A DNA stretch of 33,367 bases from a virus. Position 1 is the stretch's first letter. Every line of letters starts with the position of its first letter. Of the stretch, positions 2 through 23,838 are shown in pieces. The notes below the pieces were generated by a model. The model was not told where the DNA came from. It did not search any database and saw only the letters and a program-made list of their open reading frames with translations. The stretch lies in the IMG/VR virus record IMGVR_UViG_3300032046_003129, positions 1 to 33,367 of that record. One strand, given 5' to 3'. Position numbers and translations under genes: made by a program.

Positions 2-3000
2 GGAGTAATCGTTAATTCTGAAAGAGATGCAATTATTGTAGGTAAGTCAATTTCAGTTTCAGAACGGAATGCAGTAATTTCAGGAAAATTAAGTATTAAT
101 TCAGAACGAAATGCTGTTGTAACTGGTAAGTCAATATCTAATTCGGAACGAGGTGCAGTTATTACAGGTGGTTTAATTGTAAGTTCAGAACGAGATGCGA
201 TTATATCTGGTAAGATAGTTATTAGCAGTGAGAGAAATGCAATATTAAACGGAAAGGATATTTCAAATTCTGAACGAAGTGCGGTTATAACAGGTAAATC
301 AACTTCAAATTCTGAACGAGGAGCTGTTATAGCGGGTAAATCAATTTCAAGTTCTGAACGTGGTGCTATTATAACGGGAAAATCAGTATCTAATTCGGAA
401 CGAAATGCGATTATTCATGGCGGTTTGGCTGTAGGTTCTGAACGTAATGCTGTAATAGTTGGTAAATTAACCTCTTATAGTGAACGAGGAGCAATTATAA
501 CAGGCGGAGTTGTTTCGGTTTCGGAACGAGATGCAGTTATAACAGGCGGAGTTGTTTCGGTTTCGGAACGAGATGCAGTAATAACTGGCAAAGCAATTTC
601 AACTTCTGAAAGGAATGCAATTATAGCAGGTAAATCAACTTCAGATTCGGAACGTAATGCTGTTATTACTGGTAAATTATCTGATAACTCGGAACGAAAT
701 GCTATCATAACAGGTAAATTATCTAGTTATTCAGAACGAAATGCAATTATAATAGGTAAATTATCTATAAGTTCCGAAAGGAATGCTATTATAACTGGTA
801 AATTGACAAGTAATTCAGAACGAGACGCAATTATAATAGGAGGTATTGTTTCAACTTCTGAGCGAAATGCAATAATTACTGGTAAGTCAAGTACATTTTC
901 GGAACGTAATGCTACAATTAAAGTTGAAGGTAGTGTTAGTTCAGAACGACTTGCTATTATTACTGGTTTTCTAATTACTAATTCAGAACGAGATGCGGTT
1001 ATACATGGTAGTATCGATGTAAGTAGTGAACGAAGTGCAGTTATTCATGGTAAAAATATAGGCAACAGCGAGAGAGATGCGGTTATACATGGTAAGTTAA
1101 GTGATAACTCAGATAGGAACGCTGTAATTCACGGCAAGGATACAGCTAATAGCGAACGGAATGCAGTAATTCATGGTAAAGATACAGCTAATAGCGAAAG
1201 AGATGCGGTTATACGTGGTAAACTAGAGGCCAATTCGGAACGAAATGCTAAAATACATGGTAAAGCGTTAGCAGTTTCGGAGCGATATTGTACGATAATA
1301 GGTGAAGGTATTACATGTACTTCTGGTAGATTAGGTATTAGAACTTATATTAGAGAGAAGAAAACTTATGCTCAAGTTTCAGATAAAAATGGAAATTATT
1401 TAGGTGTTATACCTGAAATTATAGATGTGCAATTTTCAAGTATTATGAATGGCGGAAGTGCGAATATGACTATTTCAATACCTGAGGAGATAGAAGATAT
1501 AGAAACAAATCAATTATATAATGGTGGTAATCAAGTAGTAATCTGGGTTCAAGATAGAGATACTCCGTCTGGCGTAAGAATATATTGCGGTTTAATTGGT
1601 ATAGTACAGGGAACAGTTCGTGGGAATGCAGAATATGTAGAATTGGGAATAGAGGGCTACACTTCGGAATTTGAGAAGACTCCGTATATAGATAGTGGGG
1701 ATGCTTCAATACAGCATACAGACCAGTTGCCATCAGATGTTTTCAAAAGTATTGTTGATAAATATAGAGCGTTTAGAGATAATCCGCACATGAATTATTC
1801 GGCTAGTAGTGTCGATTCGATAGGTGTTAGTTATTTAATAACATATCCATTTAATCATAAAAATTGTTTTGAAGCTTTAAATGTTTTGATGGAGAGTTGT
1901 CCTGTTGATTGGTACTGGTATCTTGATAATGAAGGAATATTGTATTTTAAGCAGATTTCAAATATACCAGACCACTTATTCACATTTGGTAGAGATATAG
2001 TTGATGAGTTTTCGTTTCAAAAGAGTTATGGAAATATTAGAACTGGTATTTTATTTTGGAATAATGAAGCTCAAACTGCAAGTGATAGAACTAGATTAGT
2101 ATTCAGACAGACAGCAGTTGATGATTATGATAAGAATATTCAAATTGTAAATGATGGAAATATAACGAGATGGGATACGTTTGCTAGAATTACAGAAAAG
2201 TATCTTGATAGTTCTAGTCAGCCTTTAAGTGCGGTTAGTTTTATTATATTCGACAATAATAGCGGAATTGGATATGATATCGAAAGTATTAAGCCAGGTG
2301 ATACTTGTAGGATACTAAATTTAAGCAGTAATTTAGATATAGGGGAAAACTTGATAATAACTACTACCGAATATCATTTAGATTATATTAAAGTTGTAGT
2401 AGAGGACAGGAGACAGTTTATTACACGACAGTTAATGGATATTAATAGGCGATTGAATAATCAAGAATATTCAAGTTCGTCTTATAAAGTCGGTATAGGC
2501 ACTTACGAAATGGGTAAGATGACAGTAAATAAAGATTTAGTTGAAATTGCATATAGAAGGAAATATAAAGACCCGATTTTAGTTGCTTGTATGAATACTT
2601 ATAATGATTCTGAAGAAAGTAATGTAATAGCGGATATAACTGGTAATGAAGATGAGCAGGTAATTAAGGTTCGAGTAATTGAAACTCCTGAAAATACAGA
2701 TGACCATGCAAATGAAAGTGTGGCGTATATGTTAGTAGAGACAGGTACAGGTTATTTGCCAAGCGGTATTTATTTTGAAGCTAACAAGGTAGAGGAAAAT
2801 GATGGCAATTTTAGCTCTGTAGCCTTTTCAGAAACTTTTGTAAATACACCAGTAGTACTTTGCAGTTATCAGACTTCCGATGGTCATTATTGCAATGTAA
2901 GAATCCAAAATCGAACTACTGCTGGATTTCAGGTTAAACTAGAAAATGCTCAGGGAGATAGCACTACAATAAATGGTACAATTTATTGGATTGCTTTAGA

Positions 3001-3304
3001 TATGACAAGTGATAATACGTTCTTGCCGATTGACTTAGAAGTTCCAACAGATGTGCAGGGTATTTCAGATGGCTGGAAAACTGTGACTTGGACTCAGACT
3101 TGGAGTAATAATCCGTTAATATTTCATCAAATACAGACTTATTCCGATACAGACCCGTGCAGTTCTAGAATTAAAGAACTTGGCACAACTGATGTAAAGG
3201 TAGTTTGTGAGGAAGATAAAAATAGCGGCCCTGAGCAAAACCATAATGCAGAAACAGTTGCATTAATTGGATTTCCGTATAATAATAGTGATGGAATAAC
3301 TTAA
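2..3304 (+). CDS. Tail hub/fibre protein with repeat array and lectin-like C-terminus (5' partial)
   Basis: The frame is open from base 2, so the gene begins left of the window; the TTG at 425 is internal and not a real start. Three regions are visible. Bases 17-1318 encode 31 tandem 14-residue repeats of the type SERNAxIxGK plus four variable residues. Bases about 1330-2470 encode a segment with DKNGNYLGVIPEI, FSSIMNGGSANMTISIP and a Trp/Tyr-rich WYWYLDNEGILYFK, which resembles baseplate-hub (Tal or ReqiPepy6 Gp37-like) proteins. Bases about 2490-3290 hold three related beta-rich modules, each with a 'PhhhxxxxTY/TS' strand and a later hydrophobic strand, resembling H-type lectin domains. The likely role is tail-tip assembly and receptor or glycan binding outside the cell. 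The repeats lying before the hub domain is odd, since fibre repeats usually follow the tail-attachment domain. The family assignment is by eye; a tail role is likely, the exact subtype is not certain. Confidence 0.75.
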   Translation, partial: GVIVNSERDAIIVGKSISVSERNAVISGKLSINSERNAVVTGKSISNSERGAVITGGLIVSSERDAIISGKIVISSERNAILNGKDISNSERSAVITGKSTSNSERGAVIAGKSISSSERGAIITGKSVSNSERNAIIHGGLAVGSERNAVIVGKLTSYSERGAIITGGVVSVSERDAVITGGVVSVSERDAVITGKAISTSERNAIIAGKSTSDSERNAVITGKLSDNSERNAIITGKLSSYSERNAIIIGKLSISSERNAIITGKLTSNSERDAIIIGGIVSTSERNAIITGKSSTFSERNATIKVEGSVSSERLAIITGFLITNSERDAVIHGSIDVSSERSAVIHGKNIGNSERDAVIHGKLSDNSDRNAVIHGKDTANSERNAVIHGKDTANSERDAVIRGKLEANSERNAKIHGKALAVSERYCTIIGEGITCTSGRLGIRTYIREKKTYAQVSDKNGNYLGVIPEIIDVQFSSIMNGGSANMTISIPEEIEDIETNQLYNGGNQVVIWVQDRDTPSGVRIYCGLIGIVQGTVRGNAEYVELGIEGYTSEFEKTPYIDSGDASIQHTDQLPSDVFKSIVDKYRAFRDNPHMNYSASSVDSIGVSYLITYPFNHKNCFEALNVLMESCPVDWYWYLDNEGILYFKQISNIPDHLFTFGRDIVDEFSFQKSYGNIRTGILFWNNEAQTASDRTRLVFRQTAVDDYDKNIQIVNDGNITRWDTFARITEKYLDSSSQPLSAVSFIIFDNNSGIGYDIESIKPGDTCRILNLSSNLDIGENLIITTTEYHLDYIKVVVEDRRQFITRQLMDINRRLNNQEYSSSSYKVGIGTYEMGKMTVNKDLVEIAYRRKYKDPILVACMNTYNDSEESNVIADITGNEDEQVIKVRVIETPENTDDHANESVAYMLVETGTGYLPSGIYFEANKVEENDGNFSSVAFSETFVNTPVVLCSYQTSDGHYCNVRIQNRTTAGFQVKLENAQGDSTTINGTIYWIALDMTSDNTFLPIDLEVPTDVQGISDGWKTVTWTQTWSNNPLIFHQIQTYSDTDPCSSRIKELGTTDVKVVCEEDKNSGPEQNHNAETVALIGFPYNNSDGIT
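17..1318 (+). repeat. 31 in-frame 42-bp repeats (14 residues each)
   Basis: The period is exactly 42 bases for 31 consecutive units, with the first Ser codon at 17-19 and the last unit ending at 1318; the array probably continues left of the window. Consensus is S-E-R-[ND]-A-[VI]-I-x-G-K-x-x-x-[NSV]. Most units differ at synonymous sites, so the protein pattern has been kept for a long time. The units at 479-562 are nearly identical over 40 bases, and those around 1130-1200 share a long identical stretch, which points to recent duplications. A 14-residue period with Ala-hydrophobic-Ile-x-Gly recalls the YadA-head beta-roll, so a beta-solenoid shaft is a reasonable inference. Confidence 0.95.
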
Positions 3305-3593: not shown

Positions 3594-3672
3594 AAATTTT
3601 CAATTATTATTTATCTGAATACATTTTGTACAGTTCGTCTTTCTTTTTTGCGGATAGGTTTCGTGGCAGTTT

Positions 3673-3710
3673 AGAGAGTTTCCTAGGGCAGATAGGGACT
3701 CTCTTTTTTT
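3673..3710 (+). terminator. Rho-independent terminator of the late tail operon
   Basis: AGAGAGT at 3673-3679 pairs with ACTCTCT at 3698-3704. The helix extends by two G-U pairs and one C-G pair to about 10 bp, and a run of seven T bases follows. It sits about 80 bases after the last tail gene and just before a promoter. Confidence 0.85.
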
Positions 3711-3712
3711 AC

Positions 3713-3741
3713 TTGACATTTAAATAGATTTCTAGTAAATT
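3713..3741 (+). promoter_or_regulatory. Sigma70-type promoter at the late/early junction
   Basis: TTGACA at 3713-3718, a 17-base spacer and TAAATT at 3736-3741. The -35 is perfect and the -10 matches 4 of 6 positions. It lies immediately after the terminator, so it would start new transcription into the junction region. Confidence 0.6.
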
Positions 3742-3747
3742 GTAATT

Positions 3748-3828
3748 GCATTTCTTCTAAAATGCGTTTTGTGTTAAAGTTAAATAGCAAGAGTCCCCAT
3801 TTCCTCGTTGGACATAGTGGGGATTTTT
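3748..3828 (+). ncRNA. Possible small two-hairpin RNA
   Basis: A promoter (3713-3741) predicts a start near 3748. From there the sequence forms GCATTT/AAATGC (3748-3753 with 3760-3765) and then a terminator-like hairpin ending in five T bases near 3828. No ORF fits between them. This would be an independent RNA of about 80 nt. It may instead be a leader or a second terminator for read-through from upstream. Confidence 0.4.
3792..3828 (+). terminator. Terminator-like hairpin
   Basis: AGTCCCCA at 3792-3799 pairs with TGGGGATT at 3818-3825 (8 bp with one G-U pair), and the T run 3824-3828 follows. It would close the candidate small RNA or act as a back-up terminator. Confidence 0.6.
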
Positions 3829-3836
3829 GCATTTTA

Positions 3837-3865
3837 TTGACTTTTTTTTTGTCTTGTGCTATTTT
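3837..3865 (+). promoter_or_regulatory. Second sigma70-type promoter in the junction
   Basis: TTGACT at 3837-3842, a 17-base spacer rich in T, and TATTTT at 3860-3865. Transcription would start at about 3871-3873, right at an ATG, so the first gene would be nearly leaderless. The promoter follows the second terminator-like hairpin directly. Confidence 0.45.
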
Positions 3866-3870
3866 TAAAT

Positions 3871-4191
3871 ATGTTCAACAAGAATTTAAAATACAAAAAG
3901 ACATTTACTTCAAGTAATTATTTTAATTATCCTAGATATAATAGACGCAGGGCTTCAAATGCTTATTTGTCGTCTATAAATAAACTTCCAAGCATTCTAG
4001 GTATGCAGAATAAGCAGCCACACACAGTGGGTTGGTACTCCTGCCAATACGTACTCTCTAGGCTATATGATGAGATTTTAAATGATGAGGTATTAAATAG
4101 TGGAGAACTGGTCAGTGTGGAAAGAAAGAAAGGGATTGCTCACGTCAAACAAGCCCCTTTCCCTTCAATTACTATTATAACACAATTATAA
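3871..4191 (+). CDS. Doubtful basic hypothetical protein
   Basis: The reading frame is open from a GTG at 3856. I chose ATG 3871 because the preceding bases look like a promoter -10. The product (106 residues) is basic and Asn/Ser/Tyr-rich at its N-terminus, with no recognised domain. Its codon use includes many C-containing codons unlike its neighbours. The 3' part overlaps partly self-complementary sequence (AAAGGG near 4127 and CCCTTT near 4156), and a 13-base segment inside it (4056-4068) recurs at 4304-4316. This may be a noncoding regulatory or packaging-related stretch rather than a gene. Confidence 0.3.
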   Translation: MFNKNLKYKKTFTSSNYFNYPRYNRRRASNAYLSSINKLPSILGMQNKQPHTVGWYSCQYVLSRLYDEILNDEVLNSGELVSVERKKGIAHVKQAPFPSITIITQL

Positions 4192-4458
4192 TACACTTTG
4201 AAGCTGATAGGTTGACAATAATAGACCCTCAAATAAAAAAGAGACAAGTCGTTATAAATTTAATCTCCTTTATGGGGGAGGGGGGGGCTACCAACAAACT
4301 TAGCTCTAGGCTATATAAATTCGATTTAATTTTAAAAATAACCGATATATAGCAATATAAATGTAATTATTAAAGGAAACTAGAATAGCGTTTAAAAAAG
4401 AAATAAACAATTTATGTAAGTAATATAAAAATAATTAATAATTTAATTATAAAACAAA
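4192..4458. other. AT-rich intergenic stretch with a G tract
   Basis: No ORF of note is present. The stretch contains G5-A-G8 at 4274-4287, exceptional in this AT-rich window, and a second copy of CTCTAGGCTATAT (4304-4316, first copy 4056-4068). A TTGACA at 4212-4217 has no convincing -10 partner. The last 120 bases are almost pure A/T and lead into the replisome-organiser gene. Confidence 0.6.
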
Positions 4459-6025: not shown

Positions 6026-6058
6026 CTTTATAATAATTTAATTTTTTATTTTAATATT

Positions 6059-9761: not shown

Positions 9762-10112
9762 ATGAAAATACTAAAAAATCTATTTAAGTTATTAAAAGTT
9801 AAGGATATGAGCAAGAAATATTTTAATTGTACGGAAGTGGCAAAGCTACACGATAAAAGTCGTGATTCTATTTATGAGAAGGCTAGAGTTGGCGAATTAA
9901 AGGTTATTGCAATAAAAAAGAATAAGCGGATTAGTTATAAATTTGATGCGGATTTAGTAAGGCTATCTATGAAAAAAGGATTTGATGTGTTTTATAAGAA
10001 TTATAAGGAAGAAAAGAAAGATAAGAAGATTAGTGTTAGAGATGAAAGTGAGAATATTTTAGGTAGCGTTCCAGCAGATGCAAGTACTATAAAAAAATAT
10101 GGTAATAGATAA
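9762..10112 (+). CDS. HTH protein (excisionase/MerR-like)
   Basis: From residue 16 the product reads MSKKYFNCTEVAKLHDKSRD and continues SIYEKARVGELKVIAI, typical of HTH_17/excisionase-type winged helices with a 'T/S-xxEhAxhhxhSxxxIYxxhxxG' pattern. The internal ATG at 9807 is the alternative start; 9762 was chosen because the A/T leader precedes it, six bases after the ATPase stop. A Lys-rich linker (about 85-95) and a polar tail follow. It probably binds DNA. It resembles the HTH protein at 13744 in type, not in clear sequence identity. Confidence 0.6.
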   Translation: MKILKNLFKLLKVKDMSKKYFNCTEVAKLHDKSRDSIYEKARVGELKVIAIKKNKRISYKFDADLVRLSMKKGFDVFYKNYKEEKKDKKISVRDESENILGSVPADASTIKKYGNR

Positions 10113-10130
10113 TTTATTATTTATATCAAA

Positions 10131-10550
10131 ATGCAGAATAGTAAAAGTGTATTAGAGGAAATAAAATCTATGAAAATTAATGAGCTTGATTTAAAATTAG
10201 GCTCAGAGGATTTAAAACAGATATTGTTAAGAATACCTGAATATTTGAGGATTAAGAATATGAGTTACTTTGAGGCACTTAGAAAAATGAAGGATTTAAA
10301 GAGGAGATTAAAAGAGGTAGATGGAAATATTGTTTTGGGTTTGGATAGTAGAGAGTTTAAGAATAAGGAAATGCGGGAGGCTGCTTTATTTACTCATTCT
10401 GACCATTTGAGAGTACAAGAATTACTTGATAATGCTGAAATAGAAGTAGAACGATTAAGAGAGAATTACTGGATACATAAGTCTTTAGAATCTAATTTAA
10501 AGTCTCTAGCTGAGTTGAGGACTCAGGAATTAAAATCATTAGGAGTATAA
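10131..10550 (+). CDS. Helical hypothetical protein (139 aa)
   Basis: The product is almost entirely charged helix (for example YFEALRKMKDLKRRLKEVDG and NAEIEVERLRENYWIHKSLE), suggesting a coiled-coil dimer or oligomer. It has no membrane segment and no Cys. The gene starts 18 bases after the HTH gene with an A/T leader. Its location in the replication/recombination block is the only hint of function, and I do not recognise the family. Confidence 0.65.
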   Translation: MQNSKSVLEEIKSMKINELDLKLGSEDLKQILLRIPEYLRIKNMSYFEALRKMKDLKRRLKEVDGNIVLGLDSREFKNKEMREAALFTHSDHLRVQELLDNAEIEVERLRENYWIHKSLESNLKSLAELRTQELKSLGV

Positions 10551-10808: not shown

Positions 10809-11036
10809 ATGAGAATGAAAACTAAAAGGAAAATAATAATAAAGATATTAAACAGAGATATAAGTGAAATTGATGCTATAAATAAAGTTCTTACAGTTAT
10901 ACAAGAAGGTAGAGTATCTATTGGAGCAAAAGATAAGAAACATTATTGTTGGATTACTGCGTTTATGGATGGAGGAATTGTGAGTGTAACACCAAAATAT
11001 AAGACAGATAGTGATATATTTACAGTTTACAAGTAA
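10809..11036 (+). CDS. Small hypothetical protein (75 aa)
   Basis: The 75-residue protein is basic at its N-terminus (MRMKTKRKIIIKILNRD) and then mixed alpha/beta (KHYCWITAFMDGGIVSVTP). Its leader contains two copies of TACATGAGA-like sequence (about 10786-10806), perhaps a regulatory repeat. An alternative ATG lies two codons in. No family was recognised. Confidence 0.55.
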   Translation: MRMKTKRKIIIKILNRDISEIDAINKVLTVIQEGRVSIGAKDKKHYCWITAFMDGGIVSVTPKYKTDSDIFTVYK

Positions 11037-11095
11037 TTTAATTAACTTATTAAAATGAAGATTAGATAGAATTTTGGATATTATAAAAAGTAAAA

Positions 11096-11242
11096 ATGAA
11101 TAGTAATAAAAAATTAAAACAAAAATCTAATACTCTAGTTGATATTATTACAAATACATTTCTTTTATCTTGTTTAGTTATAGGTTTATTTATAATCGGA
11201 ATTATTATTAAATTCCTAATGAAAGTTTACTTTAAAATATAA
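11096..11242 (+). CDS. Small single-pass membrane protein (48 aa)
   Basis: The ATG at 11096 opens a 48-residue protein with a polar Lys/Asn-rich N-terminus and one long hydrophobic segment (FLLSCLVIGLFIIGIIIKFL, residues about 22-41). It is probably an inner-membrane protein. No Shine-Dalgarno is seen. The gap before it contains only a four-codon ORF. Function unknown. Confidence 0.5.
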   Translation: MNSNKKLKQKSNTLVDIITNTFLLSCLVIGLFIIGIIIKFLMKVYFKI

Positions 11243-11255
11243 CAAGTAGATATAA

Positions 11256-11510
11256 ATGAAAAAGAATAAAATAAAAACTTTAATTAAAATTTTAGAAAAT
11301 CTAAAAGAAGATGGAGTACTTTGTGTGGATACTAGAAAAAAACTTAGAAGTGTTTTAAAAGTTGTTGGATTTGATGAAGGGACAGAAGAAAGATTCGATT
11401 ATACGATGAGTCTCTTAGAATATATTTTTAATAAAGATTATAAAAGAGGATATAGAGCAGGTTTTAGTGACGGATATGATAGTGGTCAAGACGATGGATA
11501 TTATTACTAA
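11256..11510 (+). CDS. Small hypothetical protein (84 aa)
   Basis: The product is helical for residues 1-60 (NKIKTLIKILENLKEDGVLC and on) and ends in a Gly/Tyr/Asp-rich tail, YRAGFSDGYDSGQDDGYYY. That tail recalls the 'GY..G..DG' segments at the ends of several small phage proteins. No enzyme motif is present. It starts 13 bases after the membrane gene. Confidence 0.55.
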   Translation: MKKNKIKTLIKILENLKEDGVLCVDTRKKLRSVLKVVGFDEGTEERFDYTMSLLEYIFNKDYKRGYRAGFSDGYDSGQDDGYYY

Positions 11511-11526
11511 TTTTTAAATAAAAGAG

Positions 11527-11658
11527 ATGAAAGTATTTCACGAATGGCTTAAAAAAGAAGATAGGGAGAATTGGGAGATTGAAAAGTATGTAGAAGATTT
11601 ATTGAAAGAAAAGGAAAGAATGATAGACTTGCTTATTTTAGGTTATATAAAAAGATGA
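11527..11658 (+). CDS. Tiny hypothetical protein (43 aa)
   Basis: The ATG at 11527 opens a 43-residue amphipathic helical ORF ending in TGA. It is charged (MKVFHEWLKKEDRENWEIEK and on) with a short hydrophobic patch (MIDLLILGYI) near its end. The A/T leader TAATTTTTAAATAAA precedes it. It is the last ORF before the structured-RNA region. Confidence 0.45.
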   Translation: MKVFHEWLKKEDRENWEIEKYVEDLLKEKERMIDLLILGYIKR

Positions 11659-11663
11659 ACATA

Positions 11664-11692
11664 TTGATACCTTAATTAAGATTAAAACTAAT
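11664..11692 (+). promoter_or_regulatory. Possible promoter of the structured RNA
   Basis: TTGATA at 11664-11669, 17 bases, then ACTAAT at 11687-11692 (5/6 and 4/6 matches). It predicts a start near 11699, about 12 bases before the closing helix of the RNA. Confidence 0.4.
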
Positions 11693-11698
11693 TCTTAG

Positions 11699-12030
11699 CA
11701 CCTTAAAAACAGAAGCGAGCTAGTATGTGGCAGTAATTATATAATATTCTGCCTTGGATTATTATATCTCTGTCAATGGCTTGATATTGAAGTTAGACAC
11801 TTATCAGTCTAACCTTGCGAATACTTCAGATATAATAATTGACGTCTCGATACCAATTCGACCTTGATACGGTAAGAGAAGTTAGATGAATTAAAGGGAT
11901 AAAGGAAATATCATGAATCGCCCAGCAAGGAGTAAACCTTCTCAATGAAAACGGAAAAGCGAAAAGTATAGATAGAAAGACTTATACCATGCTAGCTCAC
12001 TTCTTGGAGTAGTACGAGAAAATCGTACAA
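11699..12030 (+). ncRNA. Large structured noncoding RNA, family unknown
   Basis: This 398-base gap (11659-12056) has no credible ORF and is less A/T-pure than other gaps. Bases 11711-11727 pair with 11988-12004 over 17 positions (one C/A mismatch, one G-U), joining the ends of a domain of about 290 nt. Inside, 11757-11769 pairs with 11828-11840 over 13 positions. GTTAGAC/GTCTAAC (11792-11798 with 11807-11813) makes a hairpin. TCTC and TACC (11845-11854) pair with GGTA and GAGA (11871-11879). GTATA/TATAC (11966-11970 with 11983-11987) adds another short stem. A purine-rich, probably unpaired core lies at about 11895-11935. After the closing helix, GTACGA/TCGTAC (12012-12017 with 12023-12028) forms a hairpin. 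I could not match it to RNase P, tmRNA, a group I intron or a riboswitch. It may be one of the large phage RNA classes or new. Confidence 0.75.
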
Positions 12031-12056
12031 CTAATTAATTTATTTAAAGAATTAAA

Positions 12057-12212
12057 ATGGAAAAGTTATATTCTATTGAAGATTTTATCTCTTGGATTCA
12101 AAAATACAACAATGGAACAATGAAAGAAAAAGTTTATACTCACAGTCAAATTGCAACAATTATAGCAAAAGGAATGTTAGATTTTTTTGATGAAACTAAT
12201 ACGAATTACTAG
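12057..12212 (+). CDS. Small hypothetical protein after the RNA (51 aa)
   Basis: The ATG at 12057 follows the leader TAATTTATTTAAAGAATTAAA and ends in TAG. The 51-residue product (MEKLYSIEDFISWIQKYNNG and on) is soluble and helical with no Cys. It is the first ORF downstream of the structured RNA and could be expressed with it. Family not recognised. Confidence 0.5.
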   Translation: MEKLYSIEDFISWIQKYNNGTMKEKVYTHSQIATIIAKGMLDFFDETNTNY

Positions 12213-12257
12213 CATAAGAGAGAAAGCAGAAGAGATTTAATTTATTAAAATAAAAAT

Positions 12258-12755
12258 ATGTCAAATTACTCTTGCAACTCTTGCAACTCTTGCGACTCTT
12301 GCGACTCTTGCAACTCTTGCAACTCTTGCAACTCTTGCTACTATTGCAACTCTTGCAGAGATTTAAGGATGACAGAATACAATATTTTCTGTTATTCAAA
12401 GGAATTTAATGATGAAAATTCATTTCAGCAAAAAAGATATAGAGCTTTTAATAAGGAAGTGGGAAAAGAGAGATATAATGAGATTGTAGGGGAAGTAGGA
12501 GATATTTTAGGAGAAGATTTTGTGTCGGGCTCAGACAAAAAAACATGGGAGGAATGCTGGGAACAGGTAACATCAGAGCAATGGAAGAAGCTGCTTGCGA
12601 TACCAGAGGCGAAGAATTTTAAGGAGGGATTTGAATTTATAACAGGAATTGAAATAGACATTGAAAAGAACAATAAGAAGCAAGAGTTATTGGATAAGGC
12701 AGATGAATTGATTGAGAAAGCGGAACAATTACGAGAGAAAGCAGAGGAAATTTAA
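12258..12755 (+). CDS. Protein with N-terminal Ser-Cys-Asn repeats and coiled-coil end
   Basis: The 165-residue product begins with ten tripeptides of the form S-C-[ND] (residues 5-34), so a Cys recurs at every third position. A soluble domain follows from about residue 37 (MTEYNIFCYSKEFND, later WEECWEQVTSEQWKKLLAIP and FKEGFEFITGIEI), then a charged coiled coil (KKQELLDKADELIEKAEQLR). An internal ATG at 12369 could be the ancestral start, making the Cys repeat an added leader. The soluble part looks like a conserved small phage protein of unknown role. Regularly spaced thiols could bind metal or form disulfides. The repeat DNA could gain or lose 9-base units without shifting frame. Confidence 0.65.
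   Translation: MSNYSCNSCNSCDSCDSCNSCNSCNSCYYCNSCRDLRMTEYNIFCYSKEFNDENSFQQKRYRAFNKEVGKERYNEIVGEVGDILGEDFVSGSDKKTWEECWEQVTSEQWKKLLAIPEAKNFKEGFEFITGIEIDIEKNNKKQELLDKADELIEKAEQLREKAEEI
12270..12359 (+). repeat. Ten 9-bp in-frame repeats (TCTTGCRAC)
   Basis: Ten consecutive 9-base units lie in the coding frame; seven are TCTTGCAAC or TCTTGCGAC exactly and three (8, 9, 10) vary. Near-identity at DNA level suggests recent slipped-strand expansion. Confidence 0.95.
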
Positions 12756-16533: not shown

Positions 16534-17087
16534 GGCAGAGTAAGTTTTATGATGAGATTTATGATAAGTATGAATATTATAAAGGCTGTTATAAAAAATC
16601 GCCTTTTTTACAGGTCTGGGTTTTGGCTGCGGATATTGTAGAAAGTTTTGATATTAAGGATATATTTGAAATAGGCTGTGGTACTGGTCAGTTTGCTCAT
16701 TTAATATCAGATACTTTTGATACTAGTTCTTTTAAATATTATGGTTTTGATTTTAGTAAAGTTGCAATTCAGATAGCTAAGAGTAGAAATTTGGCTAATT
16801 GTATATTTGAAGTTAAAGATGCTTTAAATGAGGAAGTTTATGATAGGAATTATAATATAGCAGTTGCAACTGAGGTGTTAGAGCATACCGATGACATGAA
16901 GATTATTTCTTTTATTAAAAGTGGTACTAAGTTTATATTTAGTGTACCGACTTTTGATGACCCAGCTCATGTTAGGTTTTTTAAAACCCAAAATGATATT
17001 TGGGAACGGTATAAAAATGTTCTTGAAATCTTGAGTGTAGATTGTTTATTCAATAAATATTTTATATGTAATTCAATAAAGAAGTAA
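16521..17087 (+). CDS. SAM-dependent methyltransferase (class I)
   Basis: Motif I is IFEIGCGTGQFAHLI (residues about 51-65), followed by FKYYGFDFSKVAIQIAKSR with the acidic residue that binds the SAM ribose. AVATEVLEHTDD is the post-motif region seen in methyltransferase type 11/12 proteins. The substrate is unknown; its position between two glycosyltransferases suggests methylation of a sugar. At 188 residues it is near minimal. It overlaps the previous gene by 13 bases and its last base is shared with the next start. Confidence 0.8.
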   Translation: MGKLRQSKFYDEIYDKYEYYKGCYKKSPFLQVWVLAADIVESFDIKDIFEIGCGTGQFAHLISDTFDTSSFKYYGFDFSKVAIQIAKSRNLANCIFEVKDALNEEVYDRNYNIAVATEVLEHTDDMKIISFIKSGTKFIFSVPTFDDPAHVRFFKTQNDIWERYKNVLEILSVDCLFNKYFICNSIKK

Positions 17088-17764
17088 TGGCTAGAATTGC
17101 CTGTTATACTCTAACTTGGAATAGGTTAGCATTTACAAAAAAGTGTTTTTCTACAATGTATGAAAAAGCTGGTGTTAAGTTTGACCATTATATTGTAGAT
17201 AATGGTTCAGATGATGGTACGTCTTTATGGCTAAGAAAGAAGTTTTATTCTGGACAATTTAAAGGTATTATTCTGAATAATCAGAATATGGGTATTATAT
17301 ATGCTCAAAATCAATTATGGCAGACTTTATGTAATTATGATTATATTATTCGTACTGATAATGATGTAATTTACGAAAGTGAGAATTGGTTATTAAGAAC
17401 TTTAGAAGTAAGTAATAAATTAGGTGATAAATGTGTTTTGTGTCCGAGGATTAGAGGTTTAGTTAAGCCTTTAATTGGTTATAATCCTGTTAAAATTTTA
17501 AATGAAATAGTTTATCATGTTAATTCGATAGGGGGATTTTGGTTTGTTCCGTTAAGTTTATGGCTTGAGTATAAACTTGATTTTTCTAATAGGTCTAAAC
17601 ATAGTTTTTCGGATTTTAATGGTATTATAGAAATTGCAAAAAGGAAGAATTATTTACTTGGTATGATTAAAGATGTGGTTATATTTCATGATTCTTTAAA
17701 TCAGCCTAAGGTAGATGGTAAATATAATAGAGAAAGAGAATTAGCTAGAAAGGAGTTATTATGA
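17087..17764 (+). CDS. Glycosyltransferase, GT2 family (GT-A fold)
   Basis: The 225-residue product has the GT2 layout: ACYTLTWNR at strand 1, YIVDNGSDDGTSLWL (nucleotide binding), NNQNMGIIYAQNQLW, and IIRTDNDVIY containing the D-x-D-like metal motif. It then reads GGFWFVPLSLW and ends near HDSLNQPKVDGKYNRE. It is shorter than many GT2 enzymes but has all core strands. It probably adds a sugar in the same pathway as its neighbours. Its stop overlaps the next start. Confidence 0.8.
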   Translation: MARIACYTLTWNRLAFTKKCFSTMYEKAGVKFDHYIVDNGSDDGTSLWLRKKFYSGQFKGIILNNQNMGIIYAQNQLWQTLCNYDYIIRTDNDVIYESENWLLRTLEVSNKLGDKCVLCPRIRGLVKPLIGYNPVKILNEIVYHVNSIGGFWFVPLSLWLEYKLDFSNRSKHSFSDFNGIIEIAKRKNYLLGMIKDVVIFHDSLNQPKVDGKYNRERELARKELL

Positions 17765-18216: not shown

Positions 18217-19856
18217 TGTATGTAAATATAGTTACTGAAAAAGATAATTGGATATTTAATAGAATGGCAAAGGAGATATTAAGTAATTGTGATGGCAGGC
18301 TTAGTAATTTTATAGACCCAAGTGCAGATATTAATTATTTTATGAATTATGGTTATTTTAGTCCTGTGGATACTTTAAAAGTTGCTTTTTATACTCATTT
18401 TGATTCTAATCTTAACTTGGTTTGGAAGGTGTCGGAAAAGAATGTTGATTTGGGTCTTTATATGGCTAAAAGATATGAACCGAATGTTAAGTTTAGACAG
18501 CAGTTAATTCCAGCAGGATTAGATATTTTTGATAGAAAGAAAGTTTGTGTTGGTGTAATTGGCAGAAGGTATAAAAGTGGCAGAAAAGGTGATAGCGATT
18601 TGAGGAAAATATTAAAATCAACTTCTTATATTCATTGGTTATTTGTGGGAGATGATAGTTGGGAAAGTTTGAGGGATTACTTGAATAGTAATTCTAATAT
18701 GGAAGTTGTTGACTATATTGACGATAAAGTGTCTTTATTTAATTATAAGAAAATGGATTTTATTTTATGTATGAGTAAAATTGAAGGAGGACCAGTTCCA
18801 TTGTTAGAAGGAGCTAAACTTGGTATAAAACTAATTACAAGGGATATAGGAAATAGTGAGATTTGGGGTAGGTATGGTGATGTTGAATTTATTGATAGTT
18901 ATAAAGATGTAATTAACTATCTGAATATTAAGTTAAATAATAAGTTTGATTCTAATATATTGAGAAATATTACTTGGGATAGATTTGGAAATGAGAATAT
19001 AATTTATATGAATAAATTAATAGAAGGTAAATATATTGAAAGATGTGCAGATGTTAATGATTTAACTGTTGTTATACCAGTTTTTAATCAGAAGTTTTAT
19101 CTAAAAAGGTGTATTGATTCGTTATCAAATATAACGAGTATTATAATTGTTGATGACTGTAGTACGGATTTAGAAACTAGAAAGTATTTAAAGGATATTA
19201 GTGAGAATGAAGGTAGGATTAAGGTAATTTGGAATGGTAGAAATTTAGGTTTTGCAAAGAGTTGTAATAGAGGTTTTAGTAAAGTTAAAACTGACTTTGT
19301 TTGTTTTTTAAACAGTGATATTGAAGTTCCAGTTAGTCAAAGTGAATGGTGGGATGATTGTGTTTCTAGACTTATGGTTTGTCCTGAAATTGGAATTATA
19401 GGAGTTCGATTATTATTTGATAATTGTAAAATACAGCATGGTGGTTCTATGATAGATTGGTCTGGTGATTTTATTCCTAGACATAGATGGGTAGGTGAAG
19501 CTGGATTTTATAATGGCTATTGTAAAGTTCAGGAAGTGGATTTTGTAACTGGTGCTTGTATGGTAATGAGAAGTGATGATTTTGAGAAAGCTGGTAAATT
19601 TCAGACTTGTTATGGTAGAGGCTATTATGAAGATTGTGATTTATGCTGTAGTATTTTAAAGTTAGGTAAAAAGGTTGTTTATGATGGTAGTGTTTGGTTA
19701 TATCATTATCACAATAAATCATTTTTTGGCAATTCTAGTGAAGAAGGAATTTATAGGAATCATTTAATTTTTAAGAAAAGGAATTTGAGTTTTTTAAAGT
19801 ATATTTATGGTATAAATAAGCATGGCAGTAAATTGGGAAAACGTAAAAATAATTAA
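18216..19856 (+). CDS. Two-domain glycosyltransferase (GT4-like plus GT2)
   Basis: The 546-residue protein joins two enzyme domains. Residues about 1-270 resemble the C-terminal half of a GT-B enzyme (GVIGRRYKSGRKGDSDLRKI, then MSKIEGGPVPLLEGAKLGIK with the Glu-rich donor loop). Residues 282-546 are a GT2 domain: DLTVVIPVFNQ, IIIVDDCSTD, NLGFAKSCNRGF, FLNSDIEV with the metal-binding Asp, then HGGSM, GACMVMRSDDFEKAGKF and GYYEDCDLC, as in rhamnosyltransferase-like WbbL proteins. Two activities on one chain suggest synthesis of a disaccharide repeat. The gene is the last and largest of the glycan cassette. Confidence 0.8.
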   Translation: MYVNIVTEKDNWIFNRMAKEILSNCDGRLSNFIDPSADINYFMNYGYFSPVDTLKVAFYTHFDSNLNLVWKVSEKNVDLGLYMAKRYEPNVKFRQQLIPAGLDIFDRKKVCVGVIGRRYKSGRKGDSDLRKILKSTSYIHWLFVGDDSWESLRDYLNSNSNMEVVDYIDDKVSLFNYKKMDFILCMSKIEGGPVPLLEGAKLGIKLITRDIGNSEIWGRYGDVEFIDSYKDVINYLNIKLNNKFDSNILRNITWDRFGNENIIYMNKLIEGKYIERCADVNDLTVVIPVFNQKFYLKRCIDSLSNITSIIIVDDCSTDLETRKYLKDISENEGRIKVIWNGRNLGFAKSCNRGFSKVKTDFVCFLNSDIEVPVSQSEWWDDCVSRLMVCPEIGIIGVRLLFDNCKIQHGGSMIDWSGDFIPRHRWVGEAGFYNGYCKVQEVDFVTGACMVMRSDDFEKAGKFQTCYGRGYYEDCDLCCSILKLGKKVVYDGSVWLYHYHNKSFFGNSSEEGIYRNHLIFKKRNLSFLKYIYGINKHGSKLGKRKNN

Positions 19857-20513: not shown

Positions 20514-21269
20514 ATGAGTAGAAAAAAGGGGAGATTTCCTTATCAGAATAGGACTCTTGCTCGAAAGATAGGTAAAATTCGTAAGGCTGGATTTAAAACT
20601 GCAGTTCACGCTTTGCCGATTGAGGCTAGAGCTTATATAGATGATTGTTTAGGTAAAGGGAAAACTGTTAATTTTATTGTTGGCTCGTTAGAGAAGGAGT
20701 TTCCGAATTTGCTTGAAGAGGCAAATGGAGTATTAGAAACTTATCCGAGTAGATGGGCTATTACTACATATAAGAAGAAGTATTTTGGTGGTGAGGCTAT
20801 TCAGGCGGCTAGTAAGCTTGTTGGTGATATAAATACTCAAGATATTATAGATAGATTATGTAAAACTATATCTAAATTGCGAAAGGATTTGTATGGTAAG
20901 TGGAATCCGTTAATTATATCAGTAACTAGATTAAAGAAAATGGTAAAAAAACTAGATGGATATTATCGTTCTACTAAAAATGCAAAAGTGTCATTTATGA
21001 GTTTATTATTCTGGGAAAAGGAGGTTAGAGAAATGTGTGTAGTTATTGATAAAATGATGAGGGATAATGGTATGTTGAGAAGTACTGAAAGTTATTTTGC
21101 TAAAATAGTTTTAAAAGATAATAAAGATGATAAAGGACAATTGGTTAGTGCCGAAAATGGTTTTGAATACGAACAACTTGCAGAACGTATCAAAAGAATG
21201 TTTGCAAATGGCATTGAGCTTGTGGACAAAAAATCCACTAGAGGCGGAGCAAGTTCTGAGTTGTCTTAA
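20514..21269 (+). CDS. terS: Candidate small terminase subunit
   Basis: The 251-residue protein sits directly before the large terminase and overlaps it by 62 bases in another frame, the usual place of terS. It is basic at the N-terminus (MSRKKGRFPYQNRTLARKIG), has a possible DNA-binding helix pair (AYIDDCLGKGKTVNFIVGSL) and then long helices that could build the oligomeric ring. The tail is Gly/Ser-rich. Small terminases bind the packaging site and load the large subunit. Sequence similarity to a known terS family was not recognised; the call rests on position and architecture. Confidence 0.5.
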   Translation: MSRKKGRFPYQNRTLARKIGKIRKAGFKTAVHALPIEARAYIDDCLGKGKTVNFIVGSLEKEFPNLLEEANGVLETYPSRWAITTYKKKYFGGEAIQAASKLVGDINTQDIIDRLCKTISKLRKDLYGKWNPLIISVTRLKKMVKKLDGYYRSTKNAKVSFMSLLFWEKEVREMCVVIDKMMRDNGMLRSTESYFAKIVLKDNKDDKGQLVSAENGFEYEQLAERIKRMFANGIELVDKKSTRGGASSELS

Positions 21270-23838
21270 TGAAAACGAAAGGGTCTATGTTTTAAAAACT
21301 ATAAAAGACTTGGTTTCTAAATCTTGGTATGATTCATTTGGTGTGTTTTCATCTTATTATTTGGGTGGTTATACGCCTGATTGGTCAAGAGATGGAATAC
21401 ACCATTTCCAATGGAATGCAATTATTGAAAATCGTTTAATTCAGAAGAAGTTGAGTTCTGATGAAGAAGAATTTTCGCCTGATACGTTGATATTGAATAG
21501 TGATGGTAAGGTTAATAATCGAATTGTTATTGAAGCTCCAAGAGATAGTGCGAAAAGCACAAAATTTACAGTTCATTATCCTATTTGGGAATTATATAGA
21601 AATTCAAATCAAAGAATTGTATTAGTATCGAATACATCATCTCAAGCAAAATCATTTTTGAGAGAAATTAAAGACCACTTGAAAAGAAATGATGTTCTTA
21701 TTAATGAATTGGGTACGCTTATTCCAAAGTATCCTGATATATGGACTCAAAATGAAATTACTGTTAAAAGAATAGCTAAGTATAAGGATGCTAGTATTTC
21801 GGCCGTTGGTGCTGGAGGAAGTATTTTATCTCGTAGAGCTGATATATTGATATGTTTTCCAGGTTATACAAGAATTGAACTGAAGGATGGAAGTAAGAAG
21901 ATTAGAGATGTATGTGTTGGTGATATGGTTAAAACACATCTAGGAAATTTTAAAAGAGTTACAAAGCTGTATAGACATAAGTTTTGTGGAGATATGCTGA
22001 AAATTTGTACGAAATATCAGAAGGTAGTAGTTACAAAAAATCACCCTTTCTTTGTTGGTGGTAAATGGATTAGGGCTAAGAATTTAAAAATTGGGGATAG
22101 ACTTACTCGACATTTTTGTAAAAAGAGAAGTTGTATTCATTTTCCCAAAGGAAGATATCATAATGCCGAGAAGAGGATTAAAGATTTTGAGATTTATGAG
22201 AGTTTTGCTAAATGGTTAGGTTTCTATGTTGCAGAAGGATGCACTAAAAATAACAATACAATTGCTTTTACGTTTAATAGTAAAGAGAAAGAATATATAA
22301 AATTTATAAGGAATGTTGGGGAAAGGTATTTAGGCAAGTCTTATATTGATAGACATTTAGAGTGGGCTACCAGTATTTTATTCTATTCTAGTAGATTTGC
22401 TCATACGTTACGTTATCTTTTTGGTAGTTACGCAACTACTAAGTGTTTACCTGAACTTGTATTTAGATTCAATGATATATTGAAGGCTAATTTTTTGTTT
22501 GGGTTATTTATGGGCGATGCTCATATTTGTAAAAATGGAGCTTTTCAATTTAGTAGTGCCTCTAAGAAACTAAGAAATAGTGTTGTTGGTTTGTTAAAAA
22601 CAATCGGTATTTCTGCTACGTGTTTATATGATTATAAGAATTTACAAGGGACATATGGTAAAGCGAATAGTTATCGGTTATATGTTAATTCTATAGATGC
22701 AAATAAGATACGAGCTATTGCGGAAAATGATTATGTTATTAAGAATATTCAAAAGGTAGAAAATTATACAAGGTATATATATAATCTTGAAGTTGAGGGC
22801 GATAATTCATATATTGCAAACGGATTTAATGTTCATAATTGTGATGATATTTTGAGGCTTGAAAATACTCGTACAGAGGAACAGCGTATAAAGGTTAAGG
22901 AGTGGTTCAATAAAGTGTTATTGCCTATTTTAGTTCCTAATGGTAGATTAGTTTTTGTGGGTACGGTATGGCATCCTGTTGATTTAATTGAGGAAATGAT
23001 GGCAGACCCGACTAACGATATAAGAGTTAGATATAAAGCTATTTTGGATTTTGATAATCAAGAGGTTTTATGGCCTGAAAGATATTCTTATGATACTTTG
23101 ATAAAGAAAAGGGATAGTCCTACTTATGGAAGATTAGCTTTTAATATGTCTTATCAAAATGAAGTTAGTGATGACGAAACAAGTTTGATTAAATATTCCT
23201 GGGTTAAAGATGCTAAATTGGCAGGGAGTAAATATAAGTTATGGGATAGATGGAATGAGGCAGAAAATCCATTTGATAGAGTTATAATAGTTGGTGGTGT
23301 CGATTTGGCTATTAGTCAGAGTATTACTGCTGATTATTTTGCTTTTGTTACTCTTGCAATAGAAGTGTCTAGTGGTAAGCGTATTGTACTTGATATAGTT
23401 AGGGAGAGATTAACGCCTTCCCAGCAGAGAGCATTAATAGCAGATAAATTTGAAAAGTTTAAACATTCTGTTATAATGGTAGAAAGCAATGCTTATCAAG
23501 CAGCTTTGGTTAAAGATATGAAGGAATATACTAGTATTCCTATAAAATCGTTTATAACTTCAGAGGAGAAGTATGACCCGTTATTAGGAATTAACTCGAT
23601 TGCAGTTCTTTTAGAAAATAAAAAGTTTGTGTTTCCTTCGGATTTTAGTGATATTAGGACAAAGGATAATGTAGGATATTTATGTGATGGATTAATTACT
23701 TATAGACCTGACAAGCATACGGAAGATACTGTAATGGCTTTATGGTTTGCGAATACAGCAGGTAGGAAACTTGAAATGACATTTTCTAAGGAAGAGTATG
23801 AGGTTGAGTCTAATTTATTTAATTTTGAAAAAATATGA
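21208..23838 (+). CDS. terL: Terminase large subunit containing an intein
   Basis: The frame extends back to 21127, but that part is a shadow of the previous gene; ATG 21208 gives 876 residues, or about 547 after removal of a 329-residue intein. The ATPase has APRDSAKST (Walker A, 21535-21561) and ADILI/CDD (Walker B, split by the intein). A motif III-like RLVFVGTVWHPVDLI follows, then an RNase H-fold nuclease with VGGVDLA, VESNAYQ and HTEDTVMALW as the likely metal-binding acidic positions. It cuts concatemers and pumps DNA into proheads using ATP. Activity requires splicing, since the Walker B acidic residues follow the insertion point. The portal gene overlaps its stop by 4 bases. Confidence 0.9.
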   Translation: MALSLWTKNPLEAEQVLSCLNENERVYVLKTIKDLVSKSWYDSFGVFSSYYLGGYTPDWSRDGIHHFQWNAIIENRLIQKKLSSDEEEFSPDTLILNSDGKVNNRIVIEAPRDSAKSTKFTVHYPIWELYRNSNQRIVLVSNTSSQAKSFLREIKDHLKRNDVLINELGTLIPKYPDIWTQNEITVKRIAKYKDASISAVGAGGSILSRRADILICFPGYTRIELKDGSKKIRDVCVGDMVKTHLGNFKRVTKLYRHKFCGDMLKICTKYQKVVVTKNHPFFVGGKWIRAKNLKIGDRLTRHFCKKRSCIHFPKGRYHNAEKRIKDFEIYESFAKWLGFYVAEGCTKNNNTIAFTFNSKEKEYIKFIRNVGERYLGKSYIDRHLEWATSILFYSSRFAHTLRYLFGSYATTKCLPELVFRFNDILKANFLFGLFMGDAHICKNGAFQFSSASKKLRNSVVGLLKTIGISATCLYDYKNLQGTYGKANSYRLYVNSIDANKIRAIAENDYVIKNIQKVENYTRYIYNLEVEGDNSYIANGFNVHNCDDILRLENTRTEEQRIKVKEWFNKVLLPILVPNGRLVFVGTVWHPVDLIEEMMADPTNDIRVRYKAILDFDNQEVLWPERYSYDTLIKKRDSPTYGRLAFNMSYQNEVSDDETSLIKYSWVKDAKLAGSKYKLWDRWNEAENPFDRVIIVGGVDLAISQSITADYFAFVTLAIEVSSGKRIVLDIVRERLTPSQQRALIADKFEKFKHSVIMVESNAYQAALVKDMKEYTSIPIKSFITSEEKYDPLLGINSIAVLLENKKFVFPSDFSDIRTKDNVGYLCDGLITYRPDKHTEDTVMALWFANTAGRKLEMTFSKEEYEVESNLFNFEKI
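21853..22839 (+). mobile_element. Intein with LAGLIDADG homing endonuclease
   Basis: The segment is 987 bases in frame (329 residues), from Cys1 (CFPGYTRIELKDG) to the final VHN, followed by Cys+1 of the host protein. N-terminal Hint blocks include VVVTKNHPFFVGGKWIRAKN, and the C-terminal block is YIYNLEVEGDNSYIANGFNV. WLGFYVAEG (22213-22239) and LFGLFMGDAH (22495-22524) are the two endonuclease motifs, both with an acidic residue at the end. All splicing residues (Cys1, block-B His, His-Asn, Cys+1) are present, so it looks active for splicing. Confidence 0.92.

Follow-up and report, generated by a model that had tools for sequence, protein, structure and literature searches.

An orphan candidate RNA with a long closing helix in the early gene block of a tailed-phage contig

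Introduction

To our knowledge, large structured RNAs of phages are few, and the best known of them, ROOL and GOLLD, are without an established function. In the msr-msd RNA of retrons a long helix joins both ends of the molecule around hairpins, and RNAs of the CsrB type, which act as protein sponges, have several GGA motifs where purine-rich sequence is left unpaired. Phages often place functions of host takeover or counter-defence in their variable early regions. Many GOLLD RNAs are longer than 800 nt, and both ROOL and GOLLD are often located near tRNA islands, a neighbourhood that is typical and not strictly required (PMC12286853). Structured RNAs in AT-rich genomes have been sought by a signature, namely long intergenic regions that are enriched in G+C (PMC8632094).

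The present study concerns a gap between early genes in a virus contig of IMG/VR (IMGVR_UViG_3300032046_003129), of which the whole stretch of 33,367 nucleotides is called the window here. The terminase, portal, head morphogenesis and capsid genes of the contig match families of tailed phages, and the capsid and portal proteins have distant relatives in phages of Bacillus, Weizmannia and Clostridioides. The segment 11699-12032 is described as an orphan candidate RNA. Its source is an uncultured tailed phage of low G+C, and in the variable early region of this phage the segment is most likely an accessory piece. We consider the chances about equal for and against its being a free-standing structured RNA element of no described class.

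Results

In the gene list of the whole window, a gap of 398 bases (11659-12056) extends from the stop at 11658 to the ATG at 12057. It is flanked by two small ORFs on the plus strand, one upstream (11527-11658, 43 aa, no family) and one downstream (12057-12212, 51 aa, no family above the cut-off). Among the gaps between listed genes inside the window it is the longest, and it has the highest G+C of the inner ones. The gap was initially annotated as being without a credible ORF, and this is borne out, as it contains no ORF of at least 40 aa and Pfam gave no match to seven of its longest stop-to-stop stretches. Two mini-ORFs were rejected: one of 11 aa, read by eye from an ATG at 11913, is tiny and uses the codon CGC, which occurs in the window at a frequency of 0.3 per 1000, and the other, MKTEKRKV from 11945, is too small with its 8 aa.

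Within this gap the candidate structured non-coding domain occupies 11699-12032, with no ORF, 36% G+C and a z-score of -3.9 to -4.2. Its length is about 294-334 nt, 294 nt being enclosed by the closing helix P1. The plus strand is assumed from the plus-strand order of the genes, and all parts of the domain are given on it. P1 joins 11711-11727 to 11988-12004; its 17 positions consist of 16 standard pairs, one U-G among them, and one C-A mismatch (88% complementary), and the pair probabilities are ~1 except at the end pair and the mismatch. The multi-branch domain closed by P1 is made up of P2, P3, P4, an open purine-rich region and a further hairpin. P2 is a hairpin of the form GGCAG...CTGCC at 11729-11753 (pair probabilities ~0.99). 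The P3 arm (11757-11840) has a helix of 13 pairs, 11757-11769 with 11828-11840, around hairpins at 11773-11790 and 11792-11813, and the inverted repeat 11758-11769/11828-11839 in it is 100% complementary. P4 (11841-11883) is an interrupted hairpin for which the MFE and centroid folds are the same. The region 11884-11965 is purine-rich and mostly unpaired (mean pairing ~0.31-0.47), and contains the SD-like AAGGAG/AAAGGA and four ANGGA motifs. The hairpin at 11966-11987 adjoins the 3' strand of P1, with 11966-11971 paired to 11982-11987 in both the MFE and the centroid. Outside P1 there is a 3' hairpin at 12008-12032, in which the six pairs of the inner stem (12012-12017/12023-12028) have a probability of ~1. 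The 17-position long-range helix and the 13-position internal helix of the initial annotation are therefore present where it had placed them, mostly with pair probabilities of ~1, and the several hairpins and the purine-rich probable loop core that it had described are likewise present in the predicted fold. A nine-base direct repeat, GAAGTTAGA, occurs within the candidate RNA at 11789-11797 and 11878-11886. Competition by the second copy is conceivable, either for the partner of the first copy or for the 3' strand of P1, but its predicted pairing probability with the former is ~0.

Against dinucleotide shuffles, the fold is better by 3.7-4.2 SD. For 11690-12040 the MFE is -84.9 kcal/mol (z -3.84), and none of 100 shuffles folded equally well. 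The stretch 11699-12030 gave z -3.88 with 300 shuffles and z -4.24 with 200, the entire gap 11659-12056 gave z -4.23, and the sub-domain 11727-11841 reached z -3.8 when folded alone. The best ungapped helix, which is P1, was matched by only one of 1000 shuffled gaps, and the pairing probabilities of P1, P2 and P3 are ~1 over most of their length. The structural signal of 11699-12032 is real. It should be noted here that z-scores of about -3 to -4 also occur elsewhere in the window, in a few stretches that include terminators (stretch ~3680-3835) and coding sequence, so that the fold score alone is not unique to 11699-12030.

Base pairing needs balanced G and C. The genome as a whole has a strong skew of G over C, and the GC skew of the domain is only 0.07, which is in the lowest 2% of windows. 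The G+C content is 36% in the domain against 30% in the genome, and C is nearly doubled (16.8% against 9.5% genome-wide). This composition supports a structured RNA. It could be argued that the domain is an AT-rich spacer or a decayed gene and owes its good fold to chance, as comparable z-scores occur elsewhere in the window and no conservation was found. Such an origin by chance is improbable in the face of a z-score of about -4, a helix seen once in 1000 shuffled gaps, raised G+C and C, and the lack of any protein-family trace in the frames tried, when these are taken in combination.

The domain was compared with the known classes of RNA. A covariance search of the whole window with Rfam 15 (4227 models) gave no match at the gathering scores, and a search of 11500-12300 up to E 10 gave four sub-threshold matches to unrelated families, none of them fitting. 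The absence of a known RNA signature, as it had been reported initially, is thus upheld by the covariance search, and the description as a structured RNA of unknown class fits a strongly folded, non-coding domain with raised C and G+C that matches no Rfam family. No tRNA or tmRNA was found in the window (ARAGORN for tRNA), the record being a fragment. The proposed likeness to ROOL or GOLLD is not supported, as there is no Rfam match at the gathering scores, no fitting match up to E 10, a length of only ~294-334 nt and no tRNA or tmRNA in the window. The covariance models of RNase P, tmRNA, riboswitches, 6S and other Rfam families were not matched. A group I or group II intron was rejected because no host frame crosses the element and no Rfam intron model matched. 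A CsrA sponge was also rejected, as the GGA count is not clearly above chance for the composition of the candidate, and so was an antisense RNA to the rest of the window, for which there were two 12-nt matches, approximately the chance expectation.

Signals for transcription were considered around the domain. A promoter of its own at 11664 had been thought possible; this is not confirmed, as the scan of the window lists no promoter-like site there and the AT-rich motif of the early genes is weak before the candidate RNA (rank 189). Before gene 12057 the same motif is strong and ranks 12th in the window; this gene has an AT-rich leader of the standard type at 12033-12056 on the plus strand, with the motif ATTTAATTTTTTATAA directly 3' of the last hairpin. 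The motif recurs at a near-fixed position, ~24 nt upstream of the start codon in many early genes (e.g. at 6036, 6324, 6600, 7068, 12033 and 12235). The genes that carry it are mostly without a Shine-Dalgarno sequence, and a few genes carry GGAGG. The hairpin 12008-12032 was not scored as a terminator, its AT-rich tail being without a T run. With a complete leader of gene 12057 after the last hairpin, the domain is placed between gene units that are finished in themselves. Neither a strong promoter nor a strong terminator belonging to the domain is visible, so that it would share the transcription of the early genes, and the early transcript probably carries it.

A location of this kind could also suit an element that acts in cis on the early polycistronic mRNA, that is, a structured spacer for RNase III cutting, a block to 5'/3' decay or a site where transcription into the downstream genes is attenuated. 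This is the main rival explanation, and it would agree with the lack of an own promoter, with neighbouring genes on a shared strand, with a position between two small ORFs and with a final hairpin directly before the leader of gene 12057. However, the domain is far larger and more branched than a processing site requires, gene 12057 has a complete standard leader, and no T run stands behind the last hairpin. We regard a cis-acting element as rather unlikely; a chance fold and a DNA-level element are less likely than this.

Comparison of the neighbouring proteins with viral contigs revealed two related records, G001, a 43.5-kb relative from IMG/VR, and G002, a 13.8-kb fragment of the tail region. 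The capsid end of the window has a nearly identical counterpart in G002, which showed no match to the early genes. G001 has early and head genes in common with the window, at ~35-70% identity and in broadly the same order. The candidate RNA is absent from G001, which alone of the two related records spans the early region, and also from G002. In G001 a homologue of gene 10131 is directly followed by a homologue of gene 13744, and a counterpart of the small ORFs at 10809-12212 and of the candidate RNA was not detected there, which places the RNA in a variable block. A pentapeptide-repeat gene precedes these two homologues in G001; its product has 22% identity to that of window gene 12258 and a similar repetitive start, and it may be the counterpart of this gene. 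The neighbouring genes are thus kept in G001, and the block of the candidate is replaced and rearranged. The spacer of G001 before the repeat-protein gene (16842-16992) is not structured, and the stretch 10050-10367 of G001 (z about -3.5 to -3.9) was rejected as a relative of the RNA, as it contains a terminator and a promoter.

Gene 12258-12755 of the window begins with a 9-nt tandem repeat in 10 copies encoding SCN/SCD units; its possible counterpart in G001 (16993-17676) has at its start pentapeptide-type repeats, NSGNW/NSGHR (Pfam Pentapeptide_2), of a different unit. G001 has two consensus TTGACA-17-TATAAT promoters, at 10306-10334 and 18306-18334, with CCCC before both, and the window has no exact promoter of this form. 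The N terminus of the tail protein of the window (425-3304) contains about twenty 42-nt repeats of the SERNAVITGK type. The stretch 3594-4458 after the tail gene is raised in C and low in GC skew; it has little coding content that convinces and only sub-threshold Rfam matches, and two hairpins in it are followed by T runs (~3683-3712 and ~3795-3832). In the large terminase subunit (21127-23838) two halves match terminase families, with ~330 aa between them (roughly residues 243-573), and this insert resembles an intein that includes an endonuclease portion.

Homologues of the domain were sought by several routes, none of which yielded one. With blastn, the region gave only short chance matches to phages and plasmids. 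A scan of viral contigs with the core pattern gave five matches, which by eye are coding or chance, and a scan of genome contigs gave one, in a MAG of Planctomycetota just before an apparent protein start, which was judged to be chance. The closing-helix pattern and the arm sequence AGAAGYGAGCTAGYATG were without a match in viral contigs; pattern scans of this type require exact matches and may miss diverged relatives. Covariance models built on the single sequence, run against the related records and three cultured phages, found the window itself and one match of 8.6 bits (E 0.7), taken as chance.

When the minus strand of the candidate RNA is folded, the result is almost as good (z -3.1 to -3.4), and the strand is therefore not fixed by the helices. 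Folding alike on both strands, a 17-bp imperfect inverted repeat around 260 nt and absence from the relative G001 would agree with an element that acts as DNA, either as a MITE-like insertion with the P1 arms as terminal inverted repeats or as an inverted-repeat region of an origin or a protein-binding site. Nevertheless, no target-site duplication of at least 5 bases surrounds the arms, no second copy was found in the window, in phages or in plasmids, and viral contigs gave no match to the arm sequence. The GC skew keeps its sign here, the region has no tandem repeats or iterons, and the interior is itself strongly structured. An element of this kind at the level of DNA is improbable.

Discussion

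The preferred reading of 11699-12032 is a structured RNA. The transcription, strand, processing and role in trans that we infer for it could be pictured as follows. The RNA would be transcribed together with the early genes and would fold into a domain with its ends joined by P1 and with a tall P3 arm. It could then be excised from the early message or protected within it. Its likeliest role would be in trans during early infection, by binding a protein or an RNA of the host, and the unpaired purine-rich strand is the likely contact surface. An accessory trans-acting early RNA with such an open strand is proposed with low confidence, and a new class of phage RNA of ~300 nt, with a 17-position closing helix and acting in trans early in the infection of an uncultured host, is a tentative possibility. 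As the candidate is a single sequence without conservation, it is a lead and not a class.

Among the known systems, the candidate resembles the msr-msd RNA of retrons in the long helix that joins its ends and encloses hairpins. It differs in matching no Rfam family and in having no reverse transcriptase among the genes scanned; none was seen by PHROGs among 20 main proteins, neighbours included. With sponges of the CsrB type it shares the size range and GGA motifs in unpaired purine-rich stretches, but it has only six GGA and four ANGGA motifs and again no Rfam match. Like ROOL and GOLLD, it is non-coding and structured and belongs to a phage genome. Unlike them, it is shorter (294 nt inside P1), has no Rfam match and no demonstrated conservation, and lies in a window without tRNA. 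If it is transcribed and conserved, the candidate would add to these RNAs a smaller class of structured phage RNA, situated in a variable early region.
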